From Gallionella sp. (lineage in GTDB: Bacteria; Pseudomonadota; Gammaproteobacteria; Burkholderiales; Gallionellaceae): a stretch of 45,203 bases of DNA. The stretch's first letter is position 1, and each line of letters begins with the position of its first letter. A model generated the notes under the pieces. The model saw only the letters and a list, made by a program, of their open reading frames with translations, was not told the origin of the DNA and did not search any database. Position numbers and translations under genes: made by a program. This document shows positions 39,892 through 44,500 of the stretch, one piece after another. The stretch is taken from positions 1-45,203 of the forward strand of contig JABEVG010000067.1 in NCBI GenBank assembly GCA_013044075.1, written 5' to 3'.

Positions 39892-41526
39892 CTACTCCAC
39901 CAAACGCAACACCCTCAACGTCCGTTCCCTCACTTCATGCAACAGCGGCACGTTCTCATCCAGCGATTCGCCATACGACGGGATCATTTGCCTTAATTTG
40001 GTCTGCCATTCGGCACTCGCGATGCGCTCCGGGTAGCAGCGTTCCAGCACTTCTATCATGGCTTGCACCGAGGTGGATGCGCCGGGTGACGCGCCCAACA
40101 GCGTCGCCAATGTGCCGTCTGCCGAAGTGACGATCTCGGTACCGAACTCCAGCTTGCCGCCTTTGCTGTCGCATTGTTTGATGATCTGCACGCGCTGTCC
40201 GGCGGAGGCTAATTCCCAATCTTCTTCACGCGCTTCAGGGTAGAAGTTTCTCAGTGCTTCGACCCGCTCTTTGTGTGTCTTGAACGCTTCGCCTATCAGG
40301 TAACGCATCAAGTCCAGGTTATCCATCGCCACCGCCATCATGGGTTTGAAGTTGCCGGATTTCAGCGAGGCGAGCACGTCGAACATCGAGCCTTCTTTCA
40401 GGAATTTTCCGGTGATGCTGGCGAATGGACCGAACAGCATCGCGGGTTCGCCGTCGATGATGCGCGCATCCAGATGCGGCACGGACATGGGTGGCGCGCC
40501 GATCGGGGCTTTGCCATACACCTTGGTCTGGTGGCGTTTGACCACCTCCGGATTCTTGCAGATCAACCACTGGCCGCTGACCGGAAAGCCGCCGTAGCCC
40601 CGTGCTTCGGGTATCTTGGATTTTTGCAGCAGGGGCAGCGCGCCGCCGCCCGCACCGAGGAACACGAAACCCGCATTGATGCTGCGGATCTTGTCGTCAT
40701 GATGGTCTTGCACCCGCACCCGCCAGCGACCGTTCGGCAACTGCTTCATCCCCACGATGCTGTGGCTCAATCTCAACTCGAAGTGGTCATGCTTGTTCAG
40801 CGACTTGACCAGACTGCGCGTCAGATGCCCGAAGTCCACGTCGGTACCATGCGCAACCTGGGTGGCGGCGACCTTCTGCCCGGAGTCGCGCCCATCCATC
40901 ACCAGCGGCATCCACTCGCGCAACACCGCCGGATCTTCGCTGTATTCCATCTCCTCGAACAGATGATGCTCGCTGAGTTGATTGAACCGCTGGCGCAGGA
41001 ACGCGACATCCTGATCGCCCCACACCAGACTCTGATGGAAGATAGGATTGATGAATTTTTCCGGCGCGGGTAACTGGTGATGTTCGACCAGATACGACCA
41101 GAATTGCAGCGACACCTCAAACGCGGCATTGATCTGCAATGCCTTGTCGATGGCGACACTGCCATCGGGTTTTTGCGGCGTGTAATTCAATTCGCAATAG
41201 CCGGCATGCCCGGTACCGGCGTTGTTCAGACCGTGCGAGCTTTCGTGCGCGACTTTGCTGAGCCGCTCCACCATCATCATCTTCAGCGACGGATCGAGAT
41301 GCGACAACAGCGTGCCCAGCGTCGCGCTCATCACACCCGCGCCCACCAGCAACACATCCACCTTGGACAACCTCGAAACACCTGCTGCGCGATCAGATTG
41401 CGGCGTTGCGCGGTGCTCGCTTCCTCGCCTACCTGATCGGTATGTCCCGGTCGCTGCGCTCCGTGCGCCTTGCACTCCGACCGCTCGCGACGGTTTTTCG
41501 AGGTTGTCTGTTTTCTTATTGGTCAC
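39892..41526 (-). CDS. mqo: Malate:quinone oxidoreductase with a repeat-derived N-terminal insert
   Basis: 544 residues. Mqo is a peripheral-membrane FAD enzyme that oxidises malate to oxaloacetate and passes electrons to quinone. The Rossmann loop LLVGAGVMSATLGTLL starts at ~59. SSHGLNNAGTGHAGYCELNY and LGAGGGALPLLQKSKIPEAR are family hallmarks. Usual Mqo proteins are near 490-500 residues and begin just before the Rossmann loop. Here residues ~7-54 are an Arg/Ser/Gly-rich insert encoded by a 143-bp segment with perfect 13-bp inverted ends. The GTG 41526 is chosen because AAGGAGG lies five bases upstream. The rest of the enzyme is intact. Confidence 0.93.
   Translation of the reverse strand: MTNKKTDNLEKPSRAVGVQGARSAATGTYRSGRRGSEHRATPQSDRAAGVSRLSKVDVLLVGAGVMSATLGTLLSHLDPSLKMMMVERLSKVAHESSHGLNNAGTGHAGYCELNYTPQKPDGSVAIDKALQINAAFEVSLQFWSYLVEHHQLPAPEKFINPIFHQSLVWGDQDVAFLRQRFNQLSEHHLFEEMEYSEDPAVLREWMPLVMDGRDSGQKVAATQVAHGTDVDFGHLTRSLVKSLNKHDHFELRLSHSIVGMKQLPNGRWRVRVQDHHDDKIRSINAGFVFLGAGGGALPLLQKSKIPEARGYGGFPVSGQWLICKNPEVVKRHQTKVYGKAPIGAPPMSVPHLDARIIDGEPAMLFGPFASITGKFLKEGSMFDVLASLKSGNFKPMMAVAMDNLDLMRYLIGEAFKTHKERVEALRNFYPEAREEDWELASAGQRVQIIKQCDSKGGKLEFGTEIVTSADGTLATLLGASPGASTSVQAMIEVLERCYPERIASAEWQTKLRQMIPSYGESLDENVPLLHEVRERTLRVLRLVE
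41366..41508. mobile_element. MITE-like 143-bp element inside the mqo coding region
   Basis: Perfect 13-bp terminal inverted repeats GACAACCTCGAAA (41366-41378) and TTTCGAGGTTGTC (41496-41508). Inside is a further inverted pair CGATCAG / CTGATCG. No transposase is encoded. It is read in frame as residues 7-54 of Mqo without any stop. Flanks share only a possible TG, so a target duplication is not established. Confidence 0.65.
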
Positions 41527-41551
41527 TCATTCCTCCTTAATTTTTACGCCC

Positions 41552-41568
41552 CATATTACTTGGCTTAT
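41552..41568 (-). repeat. 17-base motif, copy 2 (upstream of mqo)
   Basis: Read on the minus strand, ATAAGCCAAGTAATATG. It shares 16 of 17 bases with copy 1 at 3491-3507, and both continue to GCG after two differing bases. Here it includes the proposed -10 box of mqo. Confidence 0.4.
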
Positions 41569-41581
41569 GGGTGTATCTAAA
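41553..41581 (-). promoter_or_regulatory. Candidate sigma70 promoter of mqo
   Basis: On the minus strand TTTAGA (41581-41576), a 17-bp spacer and TAATAT (41558-41553). It lies between hrpA and mqo, about 27 bp upstream of the GTG start. The -10 falls within the 17-base motif shared with the region upstream of the methyltransferase fusion gene. Confidence 0.45.
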
Positions 41582-41592
41582 AATTCAAACAG

Positions 41593-44500
41593 CTAAGCGC
41601 GTATCCCGACCAACATTTTTTCCAGCCGCTTCACTGACACGATCACCGGCGTCTTCAATTCCTGCGCGAACAGCGACACGCGCAACTCCTGCATCAGCCA
41701 GGCGAACTCGTCGACACGCGGATCGGCACTATGCGCCTGACGCAACTTTTGCAATGCCTGCGACAAAGGTTGCAGCTGCGCCATGCATTGCGCGTCGCGT
41801 GCCGGATTGCCGCGCAGTTTTTCGATGCGCAGATTGATGCCCTTCAGGTAACGCGGCAGATGCTGCAAGCGTTCGTAGGGTGTAGCTTCCACGAAGCGTT
41901 TGTGTATCAGGAATTCCAGTTGCGCGCGGATGTCCGACGATGCTTGAACGTGCGCCTTGAGTTGCGGCAAACTTTTTTGCAACGCGTGATATTCGGTCAA
42001 GATGCCGAACGCAAGCCGCGCGATCTCCTGCGCGATGAGCAACAAGCGGTTCTTCGCTTCCTTGCCGCGCGCGACGAAGGTGGTTTCGTTGAAGGGCAGC
42101 GGGTCGCTCAGACAACACCGCTCGAAGGTCATCGCCAGTATCTGTTGCTGCAACTCCTGCGGCGTGCCGAGCGGCATATACAACATGCCGAGTTTCTGCG
42201 CGTCGGGCAGGTTCTTCTCCATGTACTTGACCTGCTCCTTGAGCAGCAGCATGAACAGGCGGCGCAGTCCGCCACGGTGCGCGGCCTGTGCGGCATCGCG
42301 TGTGTCGAAGGCGCGCAGAATCACCGCATCGGTGTCGTCCACCAGCGCGTTGTATAGCGTCACGCTTTGCCCTGCGCGCTGCACCACGCGCGTCTCTGCG
42401 AACTCACCAAAGCTCCACGAGGTGCTGCGTTGCTCGTTGACCGGCGCGCTGATCTCTTTGGTCGCAGCGACGATAGCGGGTGCTGCACGCGGCGCGAGTT
42501 CGCTGTGCAATTGCGAAAAATTGCGTGACATGCCGAGCTGTCGGCCATGTTCGTCGATGACGCGGAAGTTCATCAGCAGGTGCTGCGGCAGTTGCTCCAG
42601 TCGAAACGCATCCAGCGGTACATCGAGTTGTTTCTGCTCGCGCAAGTAGCGCGACAGAGCTTGCAACAGCGGCATGCCGGACGGTTGCACAGCACGACAG
42701 AACGCCGCCGCGAATTCGGGTACCGGCACGAGATTGCGGCGTATCTTTTGCGGCAGGGTCTTGATCAGTTGCACCACCTTCTCCGCCAGAATGCCCGGTA
42801 TCAGCCACTCGCAGTGCGCGGCCGAGACCTGGTTGATGAGTGCCAGCGGCACGGTGAGCGTGATGCCGTCGTCGTTTTTGCCCGGCGAGAAGTTATAGCT
42901 CAGCGCGAAGCTGACGTTGTCTATCTTGAGTTGCGGCGGAAACTTGTCGGTGGTGATGCCCTGCGCCTCGTGGCGCATCAGATCGTCTTTCTTGAGATAA
43001 AGCAGCTTCGCGTCATTGCGTTCGACCTCCTTGCGCCAGTGCTCGAAACTCGCGCCGTTGTGGATGTCGGCAGCGATGCGCGCATCGTAGAAGGCATAGA
43101 TGAGTTCATCGTCCACCAGCACATCGGGTCGGCGCGCCTTGTGCTCCAGTGCTTCGATGTCGGCGATGAGCTTCTGGTTGTGCGCAAAGAACGGCGCACG
43201 CGTGTCGAACTCGCCGCCGACCAGAGCTTGCCGGATGAATATCTCGCGTGACTCGGCCACGTTCATCGGCCCGTAATGCACACGCTTCTTGGCGTTCAGC
43301 AACAAGCCGTGCAGCGTGCTGCGCTCGTAGGCGGTGACCTGCGCGGCCTTCTTCTCCCAGTGCGGATCGAAGTAATGGCGTCTAATGAGATGCGCGCCGA
43401 CCTCTTCCAGCCATTCCGGTTCGATGCGCGCCAGACAGCGCGCGAACAGGCGATGCGTCTCGACCAGCTCGCCCGCCATCACCCACTTCGTGCCCTTCTT
43501 CGCCAGCACCGAGTTGGAGGCGATGACGAACTTGATGCCGCGCGCGCCCAGATAGTCATTGCCTTCCACGCCCTTCATGCCGATGTTGCCCAGCAGGCCG
43601 CACAGCAGGGCTTTGTGTATCTCTTCGTAGCTGGCGGGCTGTTCGTTTTCCTTCATGCCCATTTCGGCGACTTGCGTGTGCAACTGCTGATGCAGCTCGC
43701 GCCATTCGCGCAAGCGCAGCGGCGACAGGAAATTCTTGCGGCATTCTTCCGCCATCAGGCGGTTGGATTGTTTGTGCGCCAAGGCCTGCTCGTACCACGC
43801 CCATATCTTGATATAGGCGAGGAAGTCGGAACGCTCATCGGCAAACCGTTTATGCGCGGCATCCGCCGCCTCTTGCCGTTCCAGCGGACGGTCGCGCGGG
43901 TCTTGCACCGACAGCGCGCTGGCGATGATGAGTATCTCGGTGAGGCAGTGATATTGCCGCCCCGCCAGCAACAGCCGCGCAATTTTGGGGTCGAGCGGCA
44001 GCTTGGCGAGTTCGTGTCCCAGCTTGGTGAGTTGTCGCGCTTCGTCGATTGCGCCGAGTTCGGCTAGCAACTGGTAACCATCGGCTATCATGCGCGGCGT
44101 GGGCGGCTCAATGAACGGAAACTCGGTAATCTCTCCCAGCTCCAGCGCGCTCATGCGCAGAATCACAGTGGCCAGCGACACGCGGAATATTTCCGGGTCG
44201 GTAAACTCGTCGCGTTGCAGAAAATCCGCCTCGTCGTACAGACGCACGCACACGCCGCTCATCACGCGACCGCAACGCCCCTTGCGCTGATTGGCAGCGG
44301 CACGCGAGATCTTCTCGATGTGCAACTGCTCGACCTTCTGGCGGATGCTGTAGCGGTTCATGCGCGCCAGGCCACAGTCGATCACATAACCGATGTTGGG
44401 CACGGTCAGCGAGGTCTCCGCCACATTGGTCGCCAGCACCACGCGCCGCTGATTGCCAACCTTGAACACCCTGTCCTGTTCCGCTGCCGACAGCCGAGAA

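Follow-up and report, generated by a model that had tools for sequence, protein, structure and literature searches.

The mqo gene of Gallionella sp. (contig JABEVG010000067.1; positions 39892..41526, minus strand) predicts a malate:quinone oxidoreductase (Mqo) of 544 amino acids in which residues about 7-54 are encoded by a palindromic segment, which raises the question of how such a sequence came to lie inside a protein-coding gene and whether it serves the protein. The window analysed here is the whole stretch of 45,203 nucleotides. The initial annotation described a MITE-like segment of 143 bp bounded by perfect 13-bp inverted repeats, and both repeats (GACAACCTCGAAA) were confirmed, at 41366-41378 on the plus strand and at 41496-41508 on the minus strand. 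The segment (41366..41508, minus strand) is assigned to subfamily A of the family described below, with its conserved core oriented in the mqo sense. Its arms extend to 17 nt with 94% complementarity, the one closer to the mqo start at 41492..41508 and the downstream one at 41366..41382 (both minus strand), and the structured core, recognized by our covariance model R1 at 135 bits and by covariation, covers 41377..41497 on the same strand. As DNA, positions 41361-41513 fold better than every one of 200 shuffled sequences (z -3.8). Rfam 15 gave no covariance-model match in 41200-41700 at E up to 10, and a scan of 41200-41800 for promoters and terminators found none.

The mqo frame (39892-41526, minus strand) is free of stop codons through all 49 codons of the element. 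It had seemed puzzling that a segment whose length is not a multiple of three should leave this frame open, and the puzzle is resolved when the 4-bp target duplication is added, since 143 bp and 4 bp make 147 bp, or 49 codons. The presumed places of this duplication, both on the minus strand, are 41509..41512 upstream (AACA in the mqo sense) and 41362..41365 downstream (CAAG); they would be degenerate, an intact duplication being absent from this copy. A Shine-Dalgarno-like AAGGAGG lies at 41532..41538, 5 nt before a GTG at 41524..41526 (both minus strand) that its spacing to this ribosome-binding site marks as the likely start codon. Judged from the sequence, this GTG looks like the original start of mqo, so a start and leader reshaped after the insertion, as the initial annotation had proposed, need not be assumed. 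The ribosome is therefore likely to read the element as part of Mqo, and translation could also begin inside or after it.

Comparison with other Mqo proteins agrees with an insertion. A search of the genus with this protein gave matches in 42 of 61 genomes, among which we found 21 full-length Mqo loci, this one and 20 others; the remaining listed matches were short and fell on the element-coded part. The insert is missing from all 20 of the other full-length proteins, which begin, at ATG codons that we picked, 3-6 residues before the motif VDVLLVG, as in MSNKKVDV (L043) and MPKNNTVDV (L037). Likewise, the Pfam and NCBIfam Mqo models begin at residue 50-57 among the matches listed, and the claim that normal Mqo lacks the segment thus holds. 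When 143 bp and 4 bp were subtracted by hand, the remaining N-terminus read M(V)TNKKTVDVLLVG, which is close to MPKNNTVDVLLVG of L037, and the insert in Mqo hence amounts to 49 codons.

Is the segment part of a dispersed family? With BLASTN it matched one other copy in this genome and had matches in 29 of 61 genomes, this genome counted. The covariance model R1, which was built from the core without the outer arms, gave 10 hits in this genome (G000), the weakest at about 32 bits, in line with the MITE-like insert first proposed. Within the genus, 27 of 31 genomes, again counting this one, gave model hits, and hits numbered 40 in G056, which belongs to another family of the order, 31 in G027 and 23 in G064. 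In a collection of named genomes, an exact core pattern matched 67 stretches, from Gallionella, Sideroxydans (which we take to be the genus of the S. lithotrophicus mentioned below), Ferrigenium, Rhodocyclaceae, Thauera, Azoarcus, Vogesella, Pseudogulbenkiania, Methylophilaceae and others, and furthermore from Lysobacterales, one Pseudomonas and two Nitrospira-type bins; many of these matches are metagenome bins, so that individual taxon names may be wrong. The segment at 41366-41508 is thus a member of a family of IS5-type MITEs that is dispersed among iron-oxidizing bacteria and also occurs in other Betaproteobacteria and some Gammaproteobacteria. Phages gave no match to the element, and the open-access literature that we searched held no account of this family. 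Among plasmids there was one core-like match of 67 bp, at 67478-67544 of the Nitrosomonas sp. sh817 plasmid NZ_CP133084.1; this plasmid is predicted to be conjugative and is a possible vehicle between species.

The ends of the element point to the way in which it may move. Pairing of the arms continues to about 12 nt outside the core in a set of 166 distinct copies, and a copy's own arms pair at 9.6 of 14 positions compared to 6.4 with shuffled partners (G-U counted), reaching at least 11 of 14 in 87 of the 166 copies as against 4.4% of shuffled pairs. Exact 4-bp direct repeats stand just outside the arms in 25 of the 166 copies, where about 3 are expected, when scored at 10-12 nt from the core, a distance chosen from a scan of 6-23 nt; the other 141 copies have no exact repeat at the expected distance. 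Such repeats are, for example, ATAA on either side of GGGCACCTCGA in L214, and TTAG or CTAA on either side of CAGGCCGTTG in L123, L127, L130, L182 and L187. Several versions of the terminal repeats exist (GGGnACCTCGA, CAGGCyGTTG, AAGCTGCCTT, GGAAACGCTGA and others), and because the copies with exact duplications carry different but self-consistent versions, the arms belong to the element. We had also considered that the arms are inverted host flank, or that the element inserts into existing hairpins, and dropped both ideas.

A candidate for the mobilizing enzyme is available for subfamily B. Seven copies of this subfamily in G056 share 95-100% identity along some 142 nt but lie in flanks whose left 200 nt match at 18-33%, the level of unrelated DNA. 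The same genome has two IS elements, of 1325 and 1320 bp, in which the subfamily B repeat CAGGCCG(T/C)TGAAAAAC surrounds a transposase gene; the first has no duplication, and the second has TTAA and CTAA outside it and a MITE copy adjacent. In the genome with the mqo insert, an IS5-family element of 1212 bp (L339; G000:C64, 585-1796) has CTAG on both sides and ends GGGAACCTCTGA and GGGAAACTCTGA, which share 12 of 20 bases with each other. Scored against the IS5 family, for which the curated cut-off is 140, the transposases of L339 and of the first G056 element reach 322.7 and 305.2. L339 has ends that resemble the subfamily A repeat (GGGnACCTCGAAAAAC) only in part, and the search gave no IS carrying precisely that repeat; nor did R1 find a core inside the IS elements L339, L340, L345 and L348. 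From the 4-bp duplications, the near-identical copies in unrelated flanks and the IS5 elements with like ends we infer that IS5 transposases mobilize the element. DDE_Tnp_1 matches were lacking in G027, G064, G007 and G086; since G027 and G064 hold 31 and 23 model hits, the mobilizer has been lost or is a different one there.

Y1 transposases are present in G007, G019, G027 and G086, and were rejected as mobilizers since Y1_Tnp is missing from G000, G064 and G056 despite many copies. Several Y1 genes lie near inverted repeats or hairpins (L352, L353, L354, L355, L356, L359, L361 and L362) and are perhaps REPtron/TIRtron-like, to judge from the available part of PMC3733652. Around these genes a search for ends of the element gave nothing beyond loose two-mismatch matches.

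While the ends vary, the interior is conserved as a fold of eight helices plus arms. In an alignment fitted to R1, comprising 101 distinct cores of which some had also built the model, 95.8% of cells pair as compared to 81.2% in shuffles, and changes on both sides occur in 25 of 30 pairs against 15.7. Compensatory cells number 415 versus 95 (sd 9) in shuffles of this 30-pair structure, and the covariation score is 0.446, where no slid version exceeds 0.078; how large the covariation effect is stays uncertain, given that related copies do not count as independent. An unfitted alignment of 46 copies has compensated changes in 31 of 40 predicted pairs. A double-stranded palindrome is expected to show G-U and A-C mispairs equally often. 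In the core, G-U outnumbers A-C by 184 to 25 in the fitted alignment and by 88 to 15 in the unfitted one, or 36 to 13 when two nearly constant G-U columns are set aside, which argues that one strand is constrained, as RNA or as single-stranded DNA. In the 11 arm positions next to the core the counts are 142 and 131 in 166 copies and 39 and 20 in the 46-copy set; we make no claim of RNA-level selection on the arms, the excess in the smaller set being gone in the larger one. The core is common to subfamilies with different terminal repeats, and an interior kept as a covarying fold with strand-asymmetric wobbles between varying ends suggests a role of its own.

Where do the copies lie? We placed 82 copies out of 104 hits in four genomes (G000 10/10, G064 23/23, G027 25/31, G056 24/40) relative to genes called with our own simple codon score, by which the mqo copy itself was scored beside a gene and not in one. 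Of these copies, 46 lie between tandem genes (23 in sense and 23 in antisense), 21 between convergent and 9 between divergent genes, 2 inside a predicted gene, and 4 are of unknown placement. The gene ends are close: the distance to the element is at most 10 nt for 57 of 88 stop-facing and 23 of 64 start-facing sides.

In-frame insertions nevertheless occur in genes unrelated to mqo, and for Mqo, FGGY kinase and MoeA they are accompanied by relatives with an empty site. We scanned 192 distinct elements and read further those with coding signal on both sides, leaving the candidates L235 and L155 out of the count because they have no protein family. The FGGY kinase, with matches in 44 of 76 genomes, carries the element in frame in this genome (contig C100) and in G019, that is, in 2 of the 30 loci listed, the other 28 being without it. 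Pfam confirms the identity of MoeA, FGGY kinase, CobN (L245), Lnt (L058) and Dus (L247); for CobN and Lnt the in-frame insertion was read from the open frame together with Pfam. The element is antisense and between the two Lnt domains in L058, and N-terminal in L247.

Another such gene is moeA, which has matches in 69 of 76 genomes. Among the 30 loci listed, 26 were readable at the site: 6 are filled in frame, 9 are empty, with a plain spacing of 7 residues, 3 have remnants and 8 are longer without clear pieces, and all 26 interval lengths are multiples of 3. The empty genes include the moeA of the genome studied here (L289). Filled genes occur in five places of the tree, one of them sister to an empty gene with support 100/98, and the element core has 85-100% identity between genes with 67-94% identity in the flanks. 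Between-species exchange, repeated insertion or many losses must be invoked for this pattern, and the low divergence of the cores fits exchange or repeated insertion better than many losses. Two of the longer genes (L284 and L288) contain a short palindrome that is readable as a scar or as a target. Between KPGHPLAFG and FVFGLPGNP, the G029 moeA (L278) has an unrelated in-frame stretch of 44 residues (..LLNPLPPAGEG..) at the same site that looks like another palindromic repeat, and the MoeA loop may thus tolerate different insertions.

The initial annotation had further suggested that the element carries conserved open frames. The three sense frames are open in 26, 37 and 34 of 148 copies, compared to about 21% each in shuffles, and hence those in use here are no more open than by chance; the antisense frames are enriched, being open in 68, 90 and 58 of 148 copies against about 30% shuffled. 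The comparison of filled moeA cores took in five of the six, L265 being identical to L264. The inserts of L264, L267 and L268 differ by 0 synonymous and 1-5 nonsynonymous changes in host genes that differ at 50-63% of synonymous sites, and those of L276 and L277 by 0 synonymous and 4 nonsynonymous changes, whereas the six pairings of one group with the other have pS of 0.20-0.21 and pN of 0.06-0.14. In the FGGY kinase pair, pS and pN are 0.17 and 0.05 for the insert and 0.35 and 0.11 for the host. The signs of protein-level selection on the inserts are mixed and show no consistent constraint, and the low divergence of the moeA inserts speaks for either recent spread among species or constraint on the nucleotides.

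Structure prediction with AlphaFold placed Mqo residues 1-51 at pLDDT under 50 (blocks of 25-30) in a model that is poor overall (mean pLDDT 51.5). In a likewise poor MoeA model (61.9), the insert (residues 289-324) lies between two strands and is for the most part of low confidence. A targeting function or useful tail of Mqo, as once envisaged, finds no support in these low-confidence residues of a poor model or in the mixed signs of selection elsewhere, and with sense frames open at chance level a purposeful tail is unsupported. The element-coded peptide of Mqo thus probably does nothing that is needed. Overall, the first interpretation stood with regard to the MITE-like nature of the segment, its absence from other Mqo proteins and the open frame, and found no support with regard to conserved open frames and a useful tail.

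We consider it probable that a non-autonomous IS5-type MITE inserted in frame near the start of mqo and is read through as a leader. IS5-family transposases acting in trans would have recognized the terminal inverted repeats and inserted the element with a 4-bp target duplication after about codon 6. By chance, this copy would be stop-free in the needed frame, and a ribosome starting at the original GTG would read through it, the likely product being an intact Mqo behind an Arg/Ser/Gly-rich and probably unstructured leader. Host selection may have removed the insertions that broke genes, so that copies remain at gene borders together with a few harmless in-frame survivors in Mqo, FGGY kinase, MoeA, CobN, Lnt and the N-terminus of DusB. 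A separate constraint, acting perhaps on an RNA, could keep the interior folded, independently of the accidental coding. A rather unlikely alternative is that the element lies untranslated 5' of mqo, in which case the open frame upstream would be an annotation artefact and mqo would start inside or after the element, for example at a TTG or GTG directly beyond the downstream arm, with the GAGG of that arm as ribosome-binding site. Indeed, a start at TTG TCC AAG GTG GAT would yield an Mqo of normal length, arms within 10 nt of predicted starts are common in the family, as the start-facing sides counted above show, and N-terminal intragenic palindromes are often misannotated according to the available text of Di Nocera et al. 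(2013; PMC3733652). However, AAGGAGG stands five bases ahead of an in-frame GTG upstream of the element, the frame is open across all 49 codons, and the within-gene insertions in FGGY kinase and MoeA cannot be explained in this way.

It is conceivable, at less than even chances, that the core functions as a structured RNA, or as a single DNA strand folded for a protein, and spreads by riding on different IS5-type terminal repeats; the element at mqo would then be mainly a regulatory or RNA module, and its coding incidental. The covariation and excess of compensatory cells in the 30-pair structure, the surplus of G-U over A-C in both alignments and the sharing of one core by subfamilies with different arms all speak for it, but the copies are related, the unfitted surplus shrinks once the two columns are removed, Rfam has no match, and tandem copies face genes equally often in both orientations. 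A more far-reaching version, which we put forward tentatively and think somewhat improbable, is that such an RNA or strand-specific DNA fold swaps IS5-type ends across the Betaproteobacteria, and enters, is exchanged at and decays from the same MoeA loop in frame; selection would then act on a nucleic-acid fold, and in-frame insertion into proteins would be its by-product. Homology to the Rickettsia palindromic elements (RPEs) or to GTAG/CGTC REPs we think very improbable. The size is about that of RPE-1 and the in-frame habit is the same, the core begins with CGT(A/C)GCGAG in most copies, reminiscent of REP tags, and S. lithotrophicus is among the species with CGTC repeats in the available part of PMC3733652, yet REPs are single hairpins of 20-40 bp whereas this element has 143 bp, terminal repeats, 4-bp duplications and IS5-like partners, and Y1 transposases are missing from the three genomes named above. 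An origin of the 49 residues as an old, conserved Mqo domain, or of the palindrome by chance, deserves practically no credence, given the 20 of 20 relatives without the insert, the family models that begin after it and the repeats elsewhere; the segment is neither single-copy nor a conserved Mqo domain, the two features named at the outset as speaking against an inserted repeat.

The reading of an in-frame IS5-type MITE also sets the element beside known systems. In MITEs, the terminal repeats are usually better conserved than the interior; here it is the interior that is better conserved, the terminal repeats existing in several versions. Bacterial MITEs are described, in the part of PMC10969869 available to us, as short and non-coding, with terminal inverted repeats and a target duplication, and as moved in trans, and in-frame MITE-gene fusions are known from the same text. 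Our element has terminal inverted repeats, dispersed copies without a transposase of their own and, at the family level, a target duplication; candidate autonomous elements with the same ends are present for subfamily B, and for subfamily A only a partly similar IS5 in this genome. The subfamily B repeat is that of the G056 IS5 elements, from which the element differs by having no transposase. RPE-1 (Ogata et al., 2000/2002), as outlined in the accessible parts of PMC10969869 and PMC3733652, is a palindrome of about 150 bp found in frame in unrelated protein-coding genes. The likeness in size, palindrome and in-frame habit is drawn from such descriptions, whereas the IS5-like terminal repeats, 4-bp duplications, candidate autonomous partners, covarying core and different lineage are the element's own, and most of its examined copies are at gene borders and not in genes. 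GTAG and CGTC REPs, in what is available of Di Nocera et al. (2013; PMC3733652), are in-frame palindromes in genes of several bacteria; GTAG REP ends often supply the stop codon of flanking genes, and GTAG REPs are tied to RAYT tyrosine transposases and CGTC REPs to no transposase. That portion of the source describes hairpins of 20-40 bp and mentions no terminal repeats with target duplication for them, and with eight helices plus arms over 143 bp the element falls outside the REP definition of a single hairpin with an unpaired tetranucleotide tag. The in-frame habit as such is thus already known from RPEs and intragenic REPs, as far as the accessible parts of PMC10969869 and PMC3733652 go.

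A like habit is met here in free-living bacteria, together with terminal repeats, 4-bp duplications and candidate IS5 partners, and moeA offers empty, filled and decayed versions of one site. How a mobile element joins a protein without killing it, and why a non-coding interior is kept as a fold while the presumed transposase-binding ends change, are questions that can now be tested. In-frame selfish palindromes have so far been known chiefly from Rickettsia, with no clear account, to our knowledge, of how they move there.

Several variants were seen alongside the family. On contig C100 of this genome (L141), two copies of different subfamilies lie close together at 1501-1621 and 1752-1869, one in the FGGY kinase frame and the other just upstream of the start of that gene. 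Longer variants with some 50-65 extra core bases, giving core spans of 169-187 nt, are L132, L149, L151, L152, L153 and L169, as well as L175, L176, L178, L179, L194 and L196. A first survey of 14 stretches with single A-type ends gave another MITE type and no IS. This second type (L325 and L327-L332; 110-202 bp) has like ends, GGG(A/C)ACCTCTAAAAAC, around a mostly different interior (..CATCCCAACTGCTGCGTTGC..), and 4-bp duplications of ATTA in L329, TGTA in L331 and TTAA in L328; one member, L330, has a weak R1 match of 22.8 bits, and a distant kinship is possible.
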